DNA of 50,731 nucleotides from the NCBI GenBank assembly GCA_015064555.1, contig SVRZ01000017.1:1-50731 (forward strand), written 5' to 3'. Within the stretch, counting starts at the first letter, position 1; each line of letters begins with the position of its first letter. A model generated the notes under the pieces. It was not told where the DNA came from. It worked only from the letters and a program-made list of their open reading frames with translations, and ran no database searches. Positions 1,053 to 50,731 of this stretch are shown in pieces. This DNA comes from Oscillospiraceae bacterium (GTDB lineage: Bacteria; Bacillota; Clostridia; Oscillospirales; CAG-272). The translations under genes and the position numbers were made by a program.

Positions 1053-1394
1053 TTAGCCGTTTTCCTTTGCGGTGGTGATGGAGGCAATGAGCTTCCTGCG
1101 AATAGCACCGCATTTATTTGCGAGAATTTTATATGTATTTTCTTCCATTGAGCCGACCTTGAAAAGAATTTCAAGCCAGTAGTCGGTTTCATAGCATTCT
1201 TTGAGAGCAATTTCGAGTTTGTTCACAAAGTCTGCCGTGCTTTGTGCGTATTTGGCTTCATAGCTGTTTGCACCGATGGATGAGCAGGATCGCAAAAGTT
1301 GATTGACAAATACCGTCCTGCCCTTTATAGTGTCACAAACGGCAGTGATTTCTATGGTAAGCTCGACTGCGAGTTCTTTTATCGTCTTATTCAT
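1053..1394 (-). CDS. Four-helix-bundle protein, S23/IVS-encoded family
   Basis: A 113-residue helical protein beginning MNKTIKELAVELTIE, chosen at ATG 1394 because AGAAAGGAAAAATTC precedes it. It matches the four helix bundle family first seen inside 23S rRNA intervening sequences (TIGR02436/PF05635), which is structurally related to the Avd accessory protein of diversity-generating retroelements. Family hallmarks visible are LRSCSSIGANSYEAKYAQS and the following KLEIALKECYETDYWLE. Here it is not inside an rRNA gene: its upstream region is the full hairpin array at 1418-1731. Family members are thought to bind nucleic acid, so recognition of the adjacent hairpins is plausible but untested. 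No reverse transcriptase is present in the window. Confidence 0.85.
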   Translation of the reverse strand: MNKTIKELAVELTIEITAVCDTIKGRTVFVNQLLRSCSSIGANSYEAKYAQSTADFVNKLEIALKECYETDYWLEILFKVGSMEENTYKILANKCGAIRRKLIASITTAKENG

Positions 1395-1417: not shown

Positions 1418-1731
1418 TTTCGCCTGCGGGCGAAAGCGATATATTCATTTTGAAACGTGCATTCAAAATGAATGCGATATATTTGCTTTGCAAATGCGAT
1501 ATTATCTCGCGGTGCGAGATAGCGATATATTCGCCGTTGGCGAATGTGGTGGAAAGTACGCTACATATAAATCCTCACGCCTTATGCGCACGCAGTGCGC
1601 TCACGTGCCGAAGGCACATATCGCGCGCAGGCATATCGCACGCGAACAACATGAAGCGCATATCGCAAATCCTGCAAGGGATTTATATCGCTTTAGTTTG
1701 TCTGCTTTGTCAGACAAACTAAACTTTCCAC
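1418..1731 (-). repeat. Hairpin-array repeat, copy B (upstream of the four-helix-bundle gene)
   Basis: A string of perfect or near-perfect hairpins. In plus-strand order the stems are TTTCGCC/GGCGAAA, a long one built on CATTTTGAA, ATTTGC/GCAAAT, TATCTCGC/GCGAGATA and TTCGCC/GGCGAA. The invariant core (1547-1581) follows, then GTGCC/GGCAC, AAATCC/GGATTT and a 13-base-pair TTTAGTTTGTCTG stem (1692-1723). Units left of the core are separated by GCGATAT and units right of it by ATATCGC. The core begins GTGGAAAGT and the right end is ACTTTCCAC, forming an inverted pair. Comparison with copy A shows constant spacers and different hairpin inserts. Confidence 0.85.
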
Positions 1732-1758
1732 GTGGGTCATAAGGTCAAAAGGTATATT

Positions 1759-2715
1759 TTATGCCAGCATTGCTGCGACGATAACAGACAAGAATGCGAT
1801 TATAAAAGTACCTATTTCACAAACCTTCCAATAATCGATTATCGTTTGTTCATCCTCTGTGAGACGAATATGATCAAGCATATTCCATATAACGATGCTG
1901 GATATAATAAGATGAATTGCAAGCGGCAAAATGCCTATGCAAAGAATGCCATCCATCAAAATTCCAAAAACAATATTGAGAACGGCATAAATCACATGAA
2001 TAATAGAGGTAATCCGAAAGTATTTCAGAATAAACCTTGCTTTGCGATTTTCTATTACGGTTGTTTGCTTTGGATATCGTGTAGCATCCTGTGTTTTTCG
2101 ATACTCTTTCCGTTTTTCAAGAAAAATAATTGTTCCCATTCCAATAGCACCGACAAACGATACGCACCAGCAAACACCAAAATTAAATACCCAGTACCAC
2201 CACGGACGGGCAACGACTGTAGTCAGTGACCCATCTTCTTGCGCCTTGTAGACTTGATATGTATCAAAATAAAATTCGCCGTTTTGGAATTTGTCCGTAT
2301 ATTCGCTTTCCCAATCGTAAATCAAATCAATATCATCTGATTTTTTCTTTTCAACAAAAGTTCCGTTTGATGAATTATAAATGTAAGCATCAGCAGAATT
2401 ATATACAATGAGTTGATTATTGGAAAGCTCAAAGTACACATTTCTTAAATACGGCGTCGATACCGCCCAAAGAAATCGGCCTTCTTCAGAATAGACATTT
2501 ACATAGGAGGCATCATTATAGCATACATAAATTTGATGTAGATCTTCATCATGTAAAACCGTAGCAATTTCGTCTGGGGCAAACAGTTCTACCTGCACTT
2601 TTTGATAGTTTTCGTTATCTCGTGTGCACATTGATCTGCCTACCAAACCGATAGCAATCCCAGTGAGAAATATCAGTATGAAAACAACAAATAAAATTCT
2701 TTTGGTACTTGTCAT
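1759..2715 (-). CDS. Membrane protein with extracytoplasmic domain, unknown function
   Basis: A 318-residue protein with a strong AAAGGAGG ribosome binding site before ATG 2715. Residues about 7-27 are an N-terminal hydrophobic anchor. Residues 35-165 form a soluble, strand-rich region with short motifs (IYVCYNDASYVNVYSEEG, QLIVYNSADAYIYNSSNG) reminiscent of a few beta-propeller blades. Further hydrophobic segments lie near 172-197, 235-255, 258-278 and 298-318. Such a layout suggests a sensor or envelope protein, but I recognise no family. The upstream leader is homologous to that of the gene at 508-975, and hairpin arrays flank it on both sides, so it behaves like a cassette between repeats. 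Confidence 0.7.
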   Translation of the reverse strand: MTSTKRILFVVFILIFLTGIAIGLVGRSMCTRDNENYQKVQVELFAPDEIATVLHDEDLHQIYVCYNDASYVNVYSEEGRFLWAVSTPYLRNVYFELSNNQLIVYNSADAYIYNSSNGTFVEKKKSDDIDLIYDWESEYTDKFQNGEFYFDTYQVYKAQEDGSLTTVVARPWWYWVFNFGVCWCVSFVGAIGMGTIIFLEKRKEYRKTQDATRYPKQTTVIENRKARFILKYFRITSIIHVIYAVLNIVFGILMDGILCIGILPLAIHLIISSIVIWNMLDHIRLTEDEQTIIDYWKVCEIGTFIIAFLSVIVAAMLA

Positions 2716-2812
2716 AGGCCTTACACCTCCTTTATAGAAACTTCGATATGTTATACTAAACAGCTGTAAATTGTATTTTCAAGTTTCGCTCAAAACTCAC
2801 ATTTGTCCTATT
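2716..2812 (-). promoter_or_regulatory. Leader shared with the gene at 508-975
   Basis: The minus strand reads AGGACAAAT, then a hairpin (TTTTGAG-CGAAA-CTTGAAAA), TTTACAGCTGTTTAGTATAA and CATATCGAAG, then AAAGGAGG. It aligns block by block with 976-1052. In this copy it directly follows the hairpin array, whereas in the other copy the four-helix-bundle gene is interposed. Confidence 0.5.
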
Positions 2813-2814
2813 TT

Positions 2815-3123
2815 AGTTCGCTTTGCGAACGCGATATGCACCTTCGGTGCGCGATATATTTGCTTTGCAAATGCGATATTATCTCGCGGTGCGAGATAGC
2901 GATATATTTGCAACGCGAAATATATTTCGTGTTGCAAATATGGTGGAAAGTACGCTACATATAAATCCTCACGCCGCGCAGTTCGCGGCATATCGCGCCG
3001 CAGGCATATCGCGCTTTTGAATATCTCGCCTATGGCGAGGTATGTAAAAGCATATCGCAAATCCTGCAAGGGATTTATATCGCTTTAGTTTGTCTGCTTT
3101 TGCAGACAAACTAAACTTTCCAC
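2815..3123 (-). repeat. Hairpin-array repeat, copy A (overlaps the rlmD 3' end)
   Basis: Same scaffold as copy B. In plus-strand order the stems are GTTCGC/GCGAAC, GCACC/GGTGC, then the 58-base block shared with copy B (2851-2908), a TTGCAACGCGAAA/TTTCGTGTTGCAA stem, the invariant core at 2941-2975, GCCGCG/CGCGGC, CTCGCC/GGCGAG, AAATCC/GGATTT and a 14-base-pair TTTAGTTTGTCTGC stem at 3084-3115. The last stem contains the final codons and stop of rlmD. GCGATAT spacers lie left of the core and ATATCGC spacers right of it. Confidence 0.85.
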
Positions 3124-4473
3124 ATGCCCTGTCAAAGGAAACATATCATACCCCTGCACCGTATCGGTAGTATATCCCTTCTCTCGCATTATCCGCACGT
3201 CGCGCGCGAGGGTTGTCGGGTTGCATGAGATATATACGATCTTACGCGGCGCGAGCCTTACCACGTAGTCGATAAGATCCTGCGAGCATCCGGCTCTCGG
3301 AGGATCGAATATAACTACGTCCGGCTTGATCTTCTTCCCTCTTTTCTCCTCGGCGCTTCTAAGAAGCGTTTCTGCACCTCCTGCGTCGCCTGTATAGAAC
3401 TCGGCATTGGTGATGCCGTTTTGCTCTGCGTTATATCTTGCGCATTCGACTGCGCTGTCTACTATCTCAATTCCTATAACCTCTTTGGCATCGGCTGCCA
3501 TAGAGAGTCCTATCGAGCCTGCTCCGCAATAAAGATCAAGCAGTGTATCCGATTTCGTAAGACCGGCAAGGCGGCGAGCCTCTCTGTATATCAAATCAGC
3601 CGTGCCGCAGTTGACCTGATAAAAGGCGGGGGCGGTTATCTTCAGACTCACACCCGCAAGCTCATCCACGATATAGTCCTTGCCGTAAAGTGTTATATAT
3701 TCATCACCGAGAATAACGTTTGTATCCTCACTGTTTACATTGATAAGTATTCCGCATATTTCGGGAAATGCCGCCCTTACGGATGCGACAAGCTCATCCG
3801 AATGCGGAATAGAATCGCCGTTCAAAACAAGCACAAGAAGCACCTCACCGCTTACCTCGGCACGCCTCAGATATACGTGACGGAGGATGCCATCCCCACT
3901 TTTTTCATTGTATACTGAAATATTATACGCCTTGAAGAACGAGCGAAGATGCTCAAGTATATCCGCAAAAATATCGGGCGCCATAGGACAGTGAGCCGCC
4001 TCACAAACATTATGACTCTTGGGTGCATAAAATCCTATCATGTATTCGCCCGTTTTGTTTTTTGCTACGGGATACTGAGCTTTATTTCTATATCCTGTAA
4101 GACGCGGAGAAGGAACGGTTGGCAGCACGGATATGTCCGAAAGCCTCTCCTTCAGGAATGCCGAGCGGATAACGTTCTCCTTATACAGAAGCTCATCCTC
4201 ATACCGAAGCAAGCGAAGGGCACAGCTATGACATTTATCCGAGCCGCACCTCGTGTCACACCGCTTATCCGAAAGCACGAGCATTTTCTCGACACGGCCT
4301 ACGTAATATGAGGATGCCGCCTTTATTATCCTGACCTCGGCTACGTCACCGGGCACGCAGGAGGAAACGAAAACCACCGCCCCGTTTATCTTACCTACGC
4401 CGAATCCGAGATTTGTTATATCCTCTATTTCAAGAGTCACGATATCGTTCTTTTTTAAATCCGTCTTTTTCAA
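3085..4473 (-). CDS. rlmD: 23S rRNA uracil-C5 methyltransferase, RlmD/TrmA family
   Basis: A 462-residue enzyme that would methylate uracil-C5 in 23S rRNA using S-adenosylmethionine. An N-terminal TRAM-like RNA-binding domain (about 1-60) is followed by a cysteine cluster (CDTRCGSDKCHSC, about 72-84) suited to an iron-sulfur site and by the family motif GYRNKAQYPV. The SAM-binding motif is LLDLYCGAGSIGL, then FDPPRAG and the catalytic-cysteine motif ISCNPTTLARD, ending in the conserved GHVE. The start is TTG 4473 behind GGGGAG. The final residues SLVCLQKQTN and the stop are encoded within the terminal hairpin of repeat copy A. The exact target uridine among paralogues is not certain. Confidence 0.9.
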   Translation of the reverse strand: MKKTDLKKNDIVTLEIEDITNLGFGVGKINGAVVFVSSCVPGDVAEVRIIKAASSYYVGRVEKMLVLSDKRCDTRCGSDKCHSCALRLLRYEDELLYKENVIRSAFLKERLSDISVLPTVPSPRLTGYRNKAQYPVAKNKTGEYMIGFYAPKSHNVCEAAHCPMAPDIFADILEHLRSFFKAYNISVYNEKSGDGILRHVYLRRAEVSGEVLLVLVLNGDSIPHSDELVASVRAAFPEICGILINVNSEDTNVILGDEYITLYGKDYIVDELAGVSLKITAPAFYQVNCGTADLIYREARRLAGLTKSDTLLDLYCGAGSIGLSMAADAKEVIGIEIVDSAVECARYNAEQNGITNAEFYTGDAGGAETLLRSAEEKRGKKIKPDVVIFDPPRAGCSQDLIDYVVRLAPRKIVYISCNPTTLARDVRIMREKGYTTDTVQGYDMFPLTGHVESLVCLQKQTN

Positions 4474-50600: not shown

Positions 50601-50630
50601 GAACCTCTATTGAATAAGCAATAGCAGTTC
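50601..50630 (-). repeat. Hairpin at the 23S rRNA 3' boundary
   Basis: Same 30-base hairpin as at 50208-50237, directly after the 23S 3' end on the minus strand; it may take part in rRNA processing. Confidence 0.75.
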
Positions 50631-50731
50631 AAGCCCTCGGTCAATTAGTATCGCTCAACTGAATACATTACTGCACTTACATCTGCGACCTATCAAACTC
50701 CTAGTCTAGAAGCGACCTTACTCGTTTAAAA
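50630..50731 (-). rRNA. 23S rRNA, 3' end only (window edge)
   Basis: Read on the minus strand, the last 102 bases match the 3' end of bacterial 23S rRNA: GTTTGATAGGTCGCAGATGT, AAGTGCAGTAATGTATTCAG, AGCGATACTAATTGACCG and AGGGCTTGA are in the usual order. The gene continues beyond the window. Several positions differ from common Clostridia consensus, but the order and pairing words are clear. No 5S gene follows within the window, so the operon may lack one here. Confidence 0.88.

Follow-up and report, generated by a model that had tools for sequence, protein, structure and literature searches.

Inverted Gut-1-like hairpin arrays and S23 genes as candidate palindrome-seeking DNA elements of gut Clostridia

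The DNA analysed here, referred to as the window, is a stretch of 50,731 nucleotides from an Oscillospiraceae bacterium (contig SVRZ01000017.1 of assembly GCA_015064555.1). Its minus strand carries two arrays of small hairpins, A and B, the second of which is followed by a gene for a four-helix-bundle protein of the S23 family. A full array consists of two motifs resembling the Rfam family Gut-1 (RF01706) in opposite orientation. The arrays are read here as one type of a large DNA-element family in gut Clostridia, whose members seek palindromes, are assisted by S23 and form a platform for gene cassettes; a probability of roughly one half is given to this reading. The genomes compared are species representatives, many of them incomplete metagenome-assembled genomes (MAGs), and their loci are related by descent, so that the counts below are not counts of independent events.

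Read in the minus-strand direction, array A (2816-3126) lies behind its host gene, an open reading frame (ORF) for a RumA/RlmD-type 23S rRNA uracil methyltransferase (3085-4473; PF05958, 2.5e-24), the last residues of which, HVESLVCLQKQTN, are encoded by the array junction. Its target palindrome (3084-3115, TTTAGTTTGTCTGC / GCAGACAAACTAAA) is an inverted repeat with 14 bp perfect. This is followed by a left half with four GCGATAT spacers and hairpins (2969-3083), a core (2943-2968) and a right half of hairpins with ATATCGC spacers (2816-2942). Array B (1418-1734) has the same plan. Its palindrome (1692-1723), together with the sequence up to 1734 (CACGTGGAAAG), repeats the rumA-type end, and it continues through a left half (1575-1691), a core of the same sequence as that of array A (1549-1574) and a right half of hairpins with ATATCGC spacers (1418-1548), the last hairpin being 1418-1435. 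The S23 gene (1053-1394, minus strand, 113 aa) stands directly after it. The preliminary description of this DNA had named GCGATAT spacers on one side of the core and ATATCGC on the other, a 35-nt core identical between the arrays (1547-1581 and 2941-2975), and differing hairpins between the constant spacers (TTCGCC/GGCGAA in one array, for example); all of these were found as named, with four spacers of each kind per array. The shared block that it gave as 58 bases is present and measures 61 nt at 98% identity (1474-1534 and 2851-2911). The terminal stem, which it called identical, is only nearly so (77 nt at 96%, 1658-1734 and 3050-3126).

The same layout was found at other loci with other spacers (GTGAAGTT/AACTTCAC, CATGAATTG/CAATTCATG, CGTGATAT/ATATCACG and more). 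Typically, a spacer of 7-9 nt occurs three or four times in the left half with small hairpins between, and the right half uses the reverse complement of that spacer. Between full copies the hairpins are exchanged, while spacers and layout are kept. The array detector itself requires paired spacers, and the pairing was therefore re-tested without this requirement, from direct repeats alone (the 8-mer most often repeated in the region upstream of S23). A chain of the reverse complement was present in the same region for 136 of 190 such repeats, and in an array of unlike spacer in 73 of 1464 cases. The suggested complementarity of the two halves holds across many spacer types. The core, too, often matches its surroundings. 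In 57 of 140 arrays, a stretch of 10 nt or more at the start of the array or in its 5' flank is complementary to the core; of 394 mismatched combinations, one showed this. In array A, the core is ACTTTCCAC; it pairs with the rumA-end sequence GTGGAAAGT and is complementary to TATAAATCC in the array's own first spacer and hairpin; in relatives with GTTGAAAGT or GTTGAAAGC at that place, the core reads ACTTTCAAC or GCTTTCAAC. A search with the exact core pattern yielded little (3 of 295 genomes, all of the window's genus), because spacers and cores change between types. As a separate observation, reduced arrays stand behind tRNA genes in loci L143, L151 and L332, where inverted simple repeats make up the array and hairpins are few or absent; the core in L151, 16 nt long, is complementary to the 3' end of the tRNA and the terminator arm.

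A curiosity of one genome is ruled out by matches to the window's array in 37 of 69 genomes of the genus (E ≤ 0.001), its own included and many of them to one hairpin plus spacers only, and the scaffold therefore occurs in other genomes, as had been predicted, often in part. S23 (PF05635) was found in 58 of the 69 by profile search. An array was called at a detector score of at least 5 within 480 nt upstream of an S23 gene. The fetched loci contained 121 S23 genes, a subset of the genus matches, of which six with less than 200 nt upstream were left out; 94 of the remaining 115 are preceded by an array. None of 115 shuffles gave one, and neither did most control windows (6 of 95 did), a few of which could contain real arrays. 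Loci of named relatives gave 71 of 77, from the best 80 of 562, a choice biased to near relatives, with three dropped for short flanks. Nearly all of the 80 come from Clostridia or Oscillospiraceae MAGs, many from ruminant gut, and one labelled Akkermansia reached a detector score of 4 and has no array. In these sets, S23 genes have an array beside them far more often than by chance. Among 79 arrays, the identity of S23 tracks the spacer type: pairs more than 80% identical share the spacer in 83%, pairs of 50-60% identity in 6%, and the matrix correlation of 0.26 was reached by 0 of 1000 permutations. To judge from these sequence comparisons, such concordance could be explained by linkage alone. 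Two other arrangements of S23 were observed. In L078 and L081, the gene apparently lies between a left-type and a right-type half array, not after both. A second set (L067, L068, L069, L071, L073) lies between complementary simple repeats, e.g., TTGAAAGTTGAAAATGG.../...CCACTTTCAATTTTCAA; sequence resembling tRNA-Leu is seen on at least one side, which gives the appearance of an insertion into a tRNA-Leu gene.

The window's S23 gene belongs to the S23 / 23S_rRNA_IVP family by profile score (PF05635, 72.1 bits against a cut-off of 33.8; TIGR02436, 8.8e-24) and by its fold, and the statement that array B leads straight into such a gene is correct. The AlphaFold2 model (alignment of 32) has four helices and a predicted local distance difference test (pLDDT) score of 96.4. 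The best Foldseek matches were 2GSC (TM-score 0.88) and 2RLD (0.86), which were also the only relatives found by sequence search. Next came Avd (4DWL, TM-score 0.82, E 0.026) and the ribonucleoprotein 8UB7 of a diversity-generating retroelement (DGR), which bears out the relation in fold to Avd that had been proposed. A resemblance of PF05635 to Avd was noted in a 2023 paper (PMC10053308), and the S23 protein of X. campestris is a homopentamer (PMC4990558).

In an Rfam scan of 20 relatives at the Rfam cut-offs, Gut-1 was found in five loci, at the array left half in L140, L223, L234 and L272 and at another place in L077. With permissive scoring, 15 of 18 loci matched, seven of them on both strands with the left half on one strand and the right half on the other; the 18 were hand-picked, five because they were already Gut-1 matches. 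Left halves match the 77-position model above the gathering score in L226 (70.2 bits) and L336 (84.5 bits), and same-plan relatives reaching that score include L226, L231, L253, L266 and others. The window's arrays stay below it (50 bits): array B scores 38.5 bits (E 3.6e-5, 1593-1693), and the halves of array A score 23.5 bits on the left (E 0.22, a weak match at 2985-3085) and 19.9 bits on the right (E 1.7, plus strand 2829-2902), which is not significant. With the window's arrays under the cut-off and relatives above it, the link to the Gut-1 family runs through the relatives. Matches to Gut-1 occur in 65 of the 69 genus genomes, over the gathering score in 54, with up to at least 48 matches per genome and at least 24 in the window's own. 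The genus holds at least 920 Gut-1 matches (halves counted singly) against 168 S23 matches. The comparison also covered 20 top-scoring Gut-1 loci, taken as the best from 20 genomes and in several cases cut by contig ends. Full-array scores were reached by 14 of them, a palindrome with a stem of at least 9 stands on the 5' side of 15, and eight have an opposite-strand Gut-1 partner within about 75 nt. Elsewhere (G016:C68:8828-9292), seven tandem Gut-1 matches were seen on one strand at about 64-bp spacing.

The arrays prefer palindromic gene ends. A palindrome (stem of at least 9, one mismatch allowed) stands just 5' of the array in 120 of 163 cases, against 7 of 154 control windows, and one element type was found behind quite different palindromes. 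A sense tRNA gene lies within 260 nt upstream in 55 of the 163. Among 165 arrays, 33 follow a rumA-type HVES end, eight an IEWE end, which we take to be that of GMP synthase guaA, and six an EEASK or similar end; 118 lie outside these classes, many behind tRNA genes, and not all sites were identified. In four of the eight guaA-like sites, a long palindrome takes in the last codons and the stop of the gene, and its 3' arm mirrors synonymous changes of the 5' arm (L075 and L141 compared with L118 and L124); in the other four, the palindrome lies beyond the stop. The rumA ends of 30 loci were sorted by eye, two being unreadable and one having another element. The 22 array-bearing ends have stems of 5-17 bp (at least 7 in 21), the five array-free ends stems of 4-6 bp (at least 7 in none). 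The 3' arm of the palindrome therefore seems to come with the array, and an arm native to the host is disfavoured, the array-free rumA ends that lack it being those of other species. In L197 (G042:C62), a rumA HVET end runs into a long extra C-terminal region (HVETVCLLSKLN...), where apparently another element is present.

The 3' end of the unit is sharp. In 207 comparisons of elements that are 75-98% alike, similarity is lost at -40 to +25 relative to the S23 stop in 155, before this range in 22 and beyond it in 30. The starts scatter more: of 222, 121 fall in the 110 nt that precede the first spacer, 24 lie further upstream and 77 come after the spacer. Unrelated genes stand beyond S23: for 103 of 165 arrays, mechanical calling gives a same-strand ORF that has a ribosome-binding site and lies no more than 300 nt away, at a median gap of 56, and some of these ORFs overlap the S23 stop. 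In the window, a repeat named D2 forms the cassette leader immediately 5' of cargo gene 1 (copy 1, 2741-2809); this gene (1759-2715) encodes a 318-aa protein with membrane segments judged by eye. Copy 2 of D2 (985-1053), 81% identical to copy 1, lies between S23 and cargo gene 2 (508-975), whose 155-aa product matches no Pfam family at E 0.001. A third element starts at 300-446 with a rumA-type HVESVVCL end and a palindrome, followed by a hairpin array of another spacer type (CGATATG). All of these features are on the minus strand. The 31 ORFs of nine array regions hold 32 Pfam families, of which the 25 listed cover a range of enzymes, acetyltransferases, an HNH endonuclease and uncharacterised families.

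RNA stems can accommodate G-U pairs, unlike A-C pairs, so that functional RNAs show an excess of GT over AC mismatches on the transcribed strand. The internal mismatches of 233 distinct hairpins comprise 16 GT and 15 AC, and those in the acceptor stems of 110 tRNAs from the same loci comprise 36 GT and 4 AC (Fisher p 0.0004 against the arrays). This strand neutrality speaks for folding in DNA, or for palindrome correction during replication, and it suggests that Gut-1 is a DNA structure, not RNA. The exchange of hairpins with intact stems had been taken to imply selection for structure; as selection on RNA stems, this does not agree with the mismatches. Of the two forms proposed earlier, a structured RNA is disfavoured on the same ground, and a folded-DNA recombination element with its own binding protein is plausible. 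Transcription through some arrays is nevertheless likely, because S23 does not in general have a promoter of its own behind the array (of the 82 loci with room for one, 10 showed it, against 3.0 expected from shuffles; a weak excess that was not used).

A mechanism can be proposed in which the array folds in DNA, as a cruciform or a single strand. S23, which has pentameric rings among its relatives and is like Avd in its own fold, may bind the spacers or junctions and so help to bring the element, or one of its cassettes, to a palindrome that serves as target. Copies free of S23 would spread in trans, the strand-transfer enzyme would probably be a host or integrative-element function supplied in trans, and the outcome would be a cassette platform at gene ends. 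More tentatively, the arrays may represent a distinct class of mobile DNA element and cassette platform, in which an inverted pair of Gut-1 arrays reads its target by structure and complementarity, is placed by an Avd-like S23 ring chaperone without a recombinase or reverse transcriptase of its own, and collects cassettes behind tRNA, rumA and guaA. If true, this would account for an orphan RNA family and an orphan protein family together. Gut-1 and the S23 family are each already known, as orphans, and their meeting in one element joins two long-standing ones. The element also marks places where gut Clostridia seem to swap genes.

Several observations weigh against the reading of the arrays as palindrome-seeking, S23-assisted elements. 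No S23 gene was found near any of the 20 top Gut-1 loci, for which 1.5 kb or so was fetched; the pairing of array and S23 claimed in the preliminary description thus holds from S23 to array and fails from array to S23. The units bearing S23 may be the fuller form and the S23-free arrays dependent copies. No array was detected at 21 of the 115 genus S23 genes. Across the class, S23 is present in 81 of 293 genomes, and an array accompanies only 18 of 48 class-level S23 loci, most of the 18 belonging to the near S23 subfamily; the 48 were 30 returned and 20 hand-picked loci, less two dropped, and a few of the 18 may be chance, given the background of 6 in 95. The palindromes are not uniformly matched: the arms agree only in part at a further guaA-like end that the pattern missed (L130), and are mismatched at rumA in L172, L182 and partly L194, as would be expected if the element had arrived from another allele. 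No excision or insertion event was seen, the array-free rumA ends being from other species and not from the same strain. Neither a transposase nor an integrase is among the 25 listed of the 32 Pfam families nearby. The mismatch comparison comprises just 31 mismatches, a small sample; template-switch correction could keep stems perfect without selection; and 68 of 150 arrays leave no room for a promoter before S23, so that the array may lie in the S23 leader.

An integron-like cassette system is an unlikely alternative, in which palindromes and arrays would be folded sites for a tyrosine recombinase encoded elsewhere and the cargo genes would be the cassettes. The ends of rumA, guaA and tRNA genes are hot spots of integrative elements, which is in its favour. 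Different species have cargo blocks in common although the arrays in front of them are unlike, and the repeated ends of the blocks (D2 ... HVES) all point one way: the block of D2, cargo gene 1 and HVES is 94.7% identical over 1102 bp to that of another species (G011, L048), where it stands behind a different array type and the rumA flank is about 74% alike over 183 columns, a contrast that also counts in favour of the main reading. A 94-nt junction without an array occurs twice between cargo genes in L046 (oriented 1281-1374 and 1954-2047, 97% identical); it consists of a rumA-like end, a short hairpin and a D2-like leader, and represents a minimal cassette boundary. However, the families listed for the 31 ORFs include no integrase, tyrosine recombinases acting in trans not having been tested, and no attC-type core boxes were recognised by eye.

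It is improbable that the arrays are passive repeats of the kind known as repetitive extragenic palindromes and bacterial interspersed mosaic elements (REP/BIME), spread and corrected by replication errors, functionless, and with S23 as a passenger. The many copies per genome, many of them without S23, the near-perfect stems of free sequence and the strand-neutral mismatches would all fit, but the paired-spacer plan, the association with S23 and the sharp unit ends are conserved despite complete change of sequence. Nor is much credit given to a selfish element acting at the RNA level like the intervening sequences (IVS) of rRNA, whose transcripts would fold through the paired halves and be trimmed by RNase III. 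The protein family (PF05635) is the same, the flanks are complementary, the second S23 set of the genus is flanked by complementary simple repeats, and RNase III excision of an IVS is documented for Coxiella (PMC4990558). The arrays, on the other hand, are read at tRNA and gene ends and not within rRNA, S23 usually follows both halves instead of lying between them, and the mismatches are strand-neutral. Least probable is that Gut-1 is a structured noncoding RNA which has here been doubled, the two copies facing opposite ways, and that S23 is the protein which binds this RNA: the Rfam model has covarying stems, an expressed noncoding RNA is favoured in PMC2864571, arrays follow transcribed units with 68 of 150 close enough to the S23 start for a leader, and S23 family members occur in rRNA intervening sequences (PMC4990558), but wobble pairs show no strand preference (16:15 against 36:4 in tRNA), both strands match Gut-1, and many arrays lie beyond terminator-like hairpins.

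The palindrome-seeking element can be compared with several known systems, beginning with their enzymes. RVT_1 is present in 11 of the 69 genus genomes, with one match in the window's own, on another contig, compared with S23 in 58; a reverse-transcriptase partner in cis or by co-occurrence was therefore rejected. Y1_Tnp (PF01797) occurs in 18 of the 69 and was not found in the window's genome (82% complete), and a Y1/RAYT transposase as general mover was rejected likewise. As neither tracks the element, a host enzyme or one acting in trans is the probable mover. Palindromes of the REP/BIME type, which belong with RAYT (Y1) transposases, are dispersed, intergenic and present in many copies. 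The arrays are like them in these respects, and differ in that no Y1_Tnp was found in their own genome, in a paired architecture of roughly 250 nt and in carrying S23 in part.

The IVS of 23S rRNA share the protein family (PF05635, TIGR02436), complementary sequences around or beside the gene, and insertion at helices. The arrays differ in lying outside rRNA: the sites read are tRNA terminators and rumA-like, guaA-like and other gene ends, and the only rRNA match noted in the window (50625-50731, Rfam 68.5 bits) stands 47 kb away; it covers the end of a 23S rRNA gene and lies against the edge of the contig. Other genes follow downstream, and S23 usually comes after a decorated inverted array.

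Group IIC introns are placed directly 3' of terminator hairpins, and the arrays resemble them in this. No intron family reached the gathering score in Rfam scans of the window and 20 loci, and no reverse-transcriptase family was found in the four ORFs scanned beside the window's arrays or in the 25 listed of 32 families nearby. The analogy of these introns to DGR targets has been drawn before (PMC3240598). For homing, a DGR requires its target DNA to form a hairpin or cruciform, where the stem sequence is free and structure matters (PMC3240598); the hairpin-shaped DNA target with a free stem is a likeness to the arrays, as is the Avd fold (TM-score 0.82 to 4DWL). The S23-array unit differs from a DGR in having no reverse transcriptase; template and variable repeats were not searched for. 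With the fold of S23 and Avd in common, a hairpin-shaped DNA target is a possible common theme, which would offer a testable function for the S23 family.

The closest relation is to Gut-1 itself, which Weinberg et al. (2010, PMC2864571) listed from human gut only, considering expression as a noncoding RNA most likely. In the open-access papers searched, this was the sole description found of any part of the arrays, and no account was found there of Gut-1 and S23 as one element, of the inverted pairing, of palindromic targets or of a cargo boundary. The left halves of many arrays match the Gut-1 model, and in several the right halves match it on the opposite strand. The arrays depart from the Gut-1 RNA in that the motif is here one half of an inverted pair, occurs in many copies per genome, is partly tied to S23, stands at palindromic gene ends and is strand-neutral.

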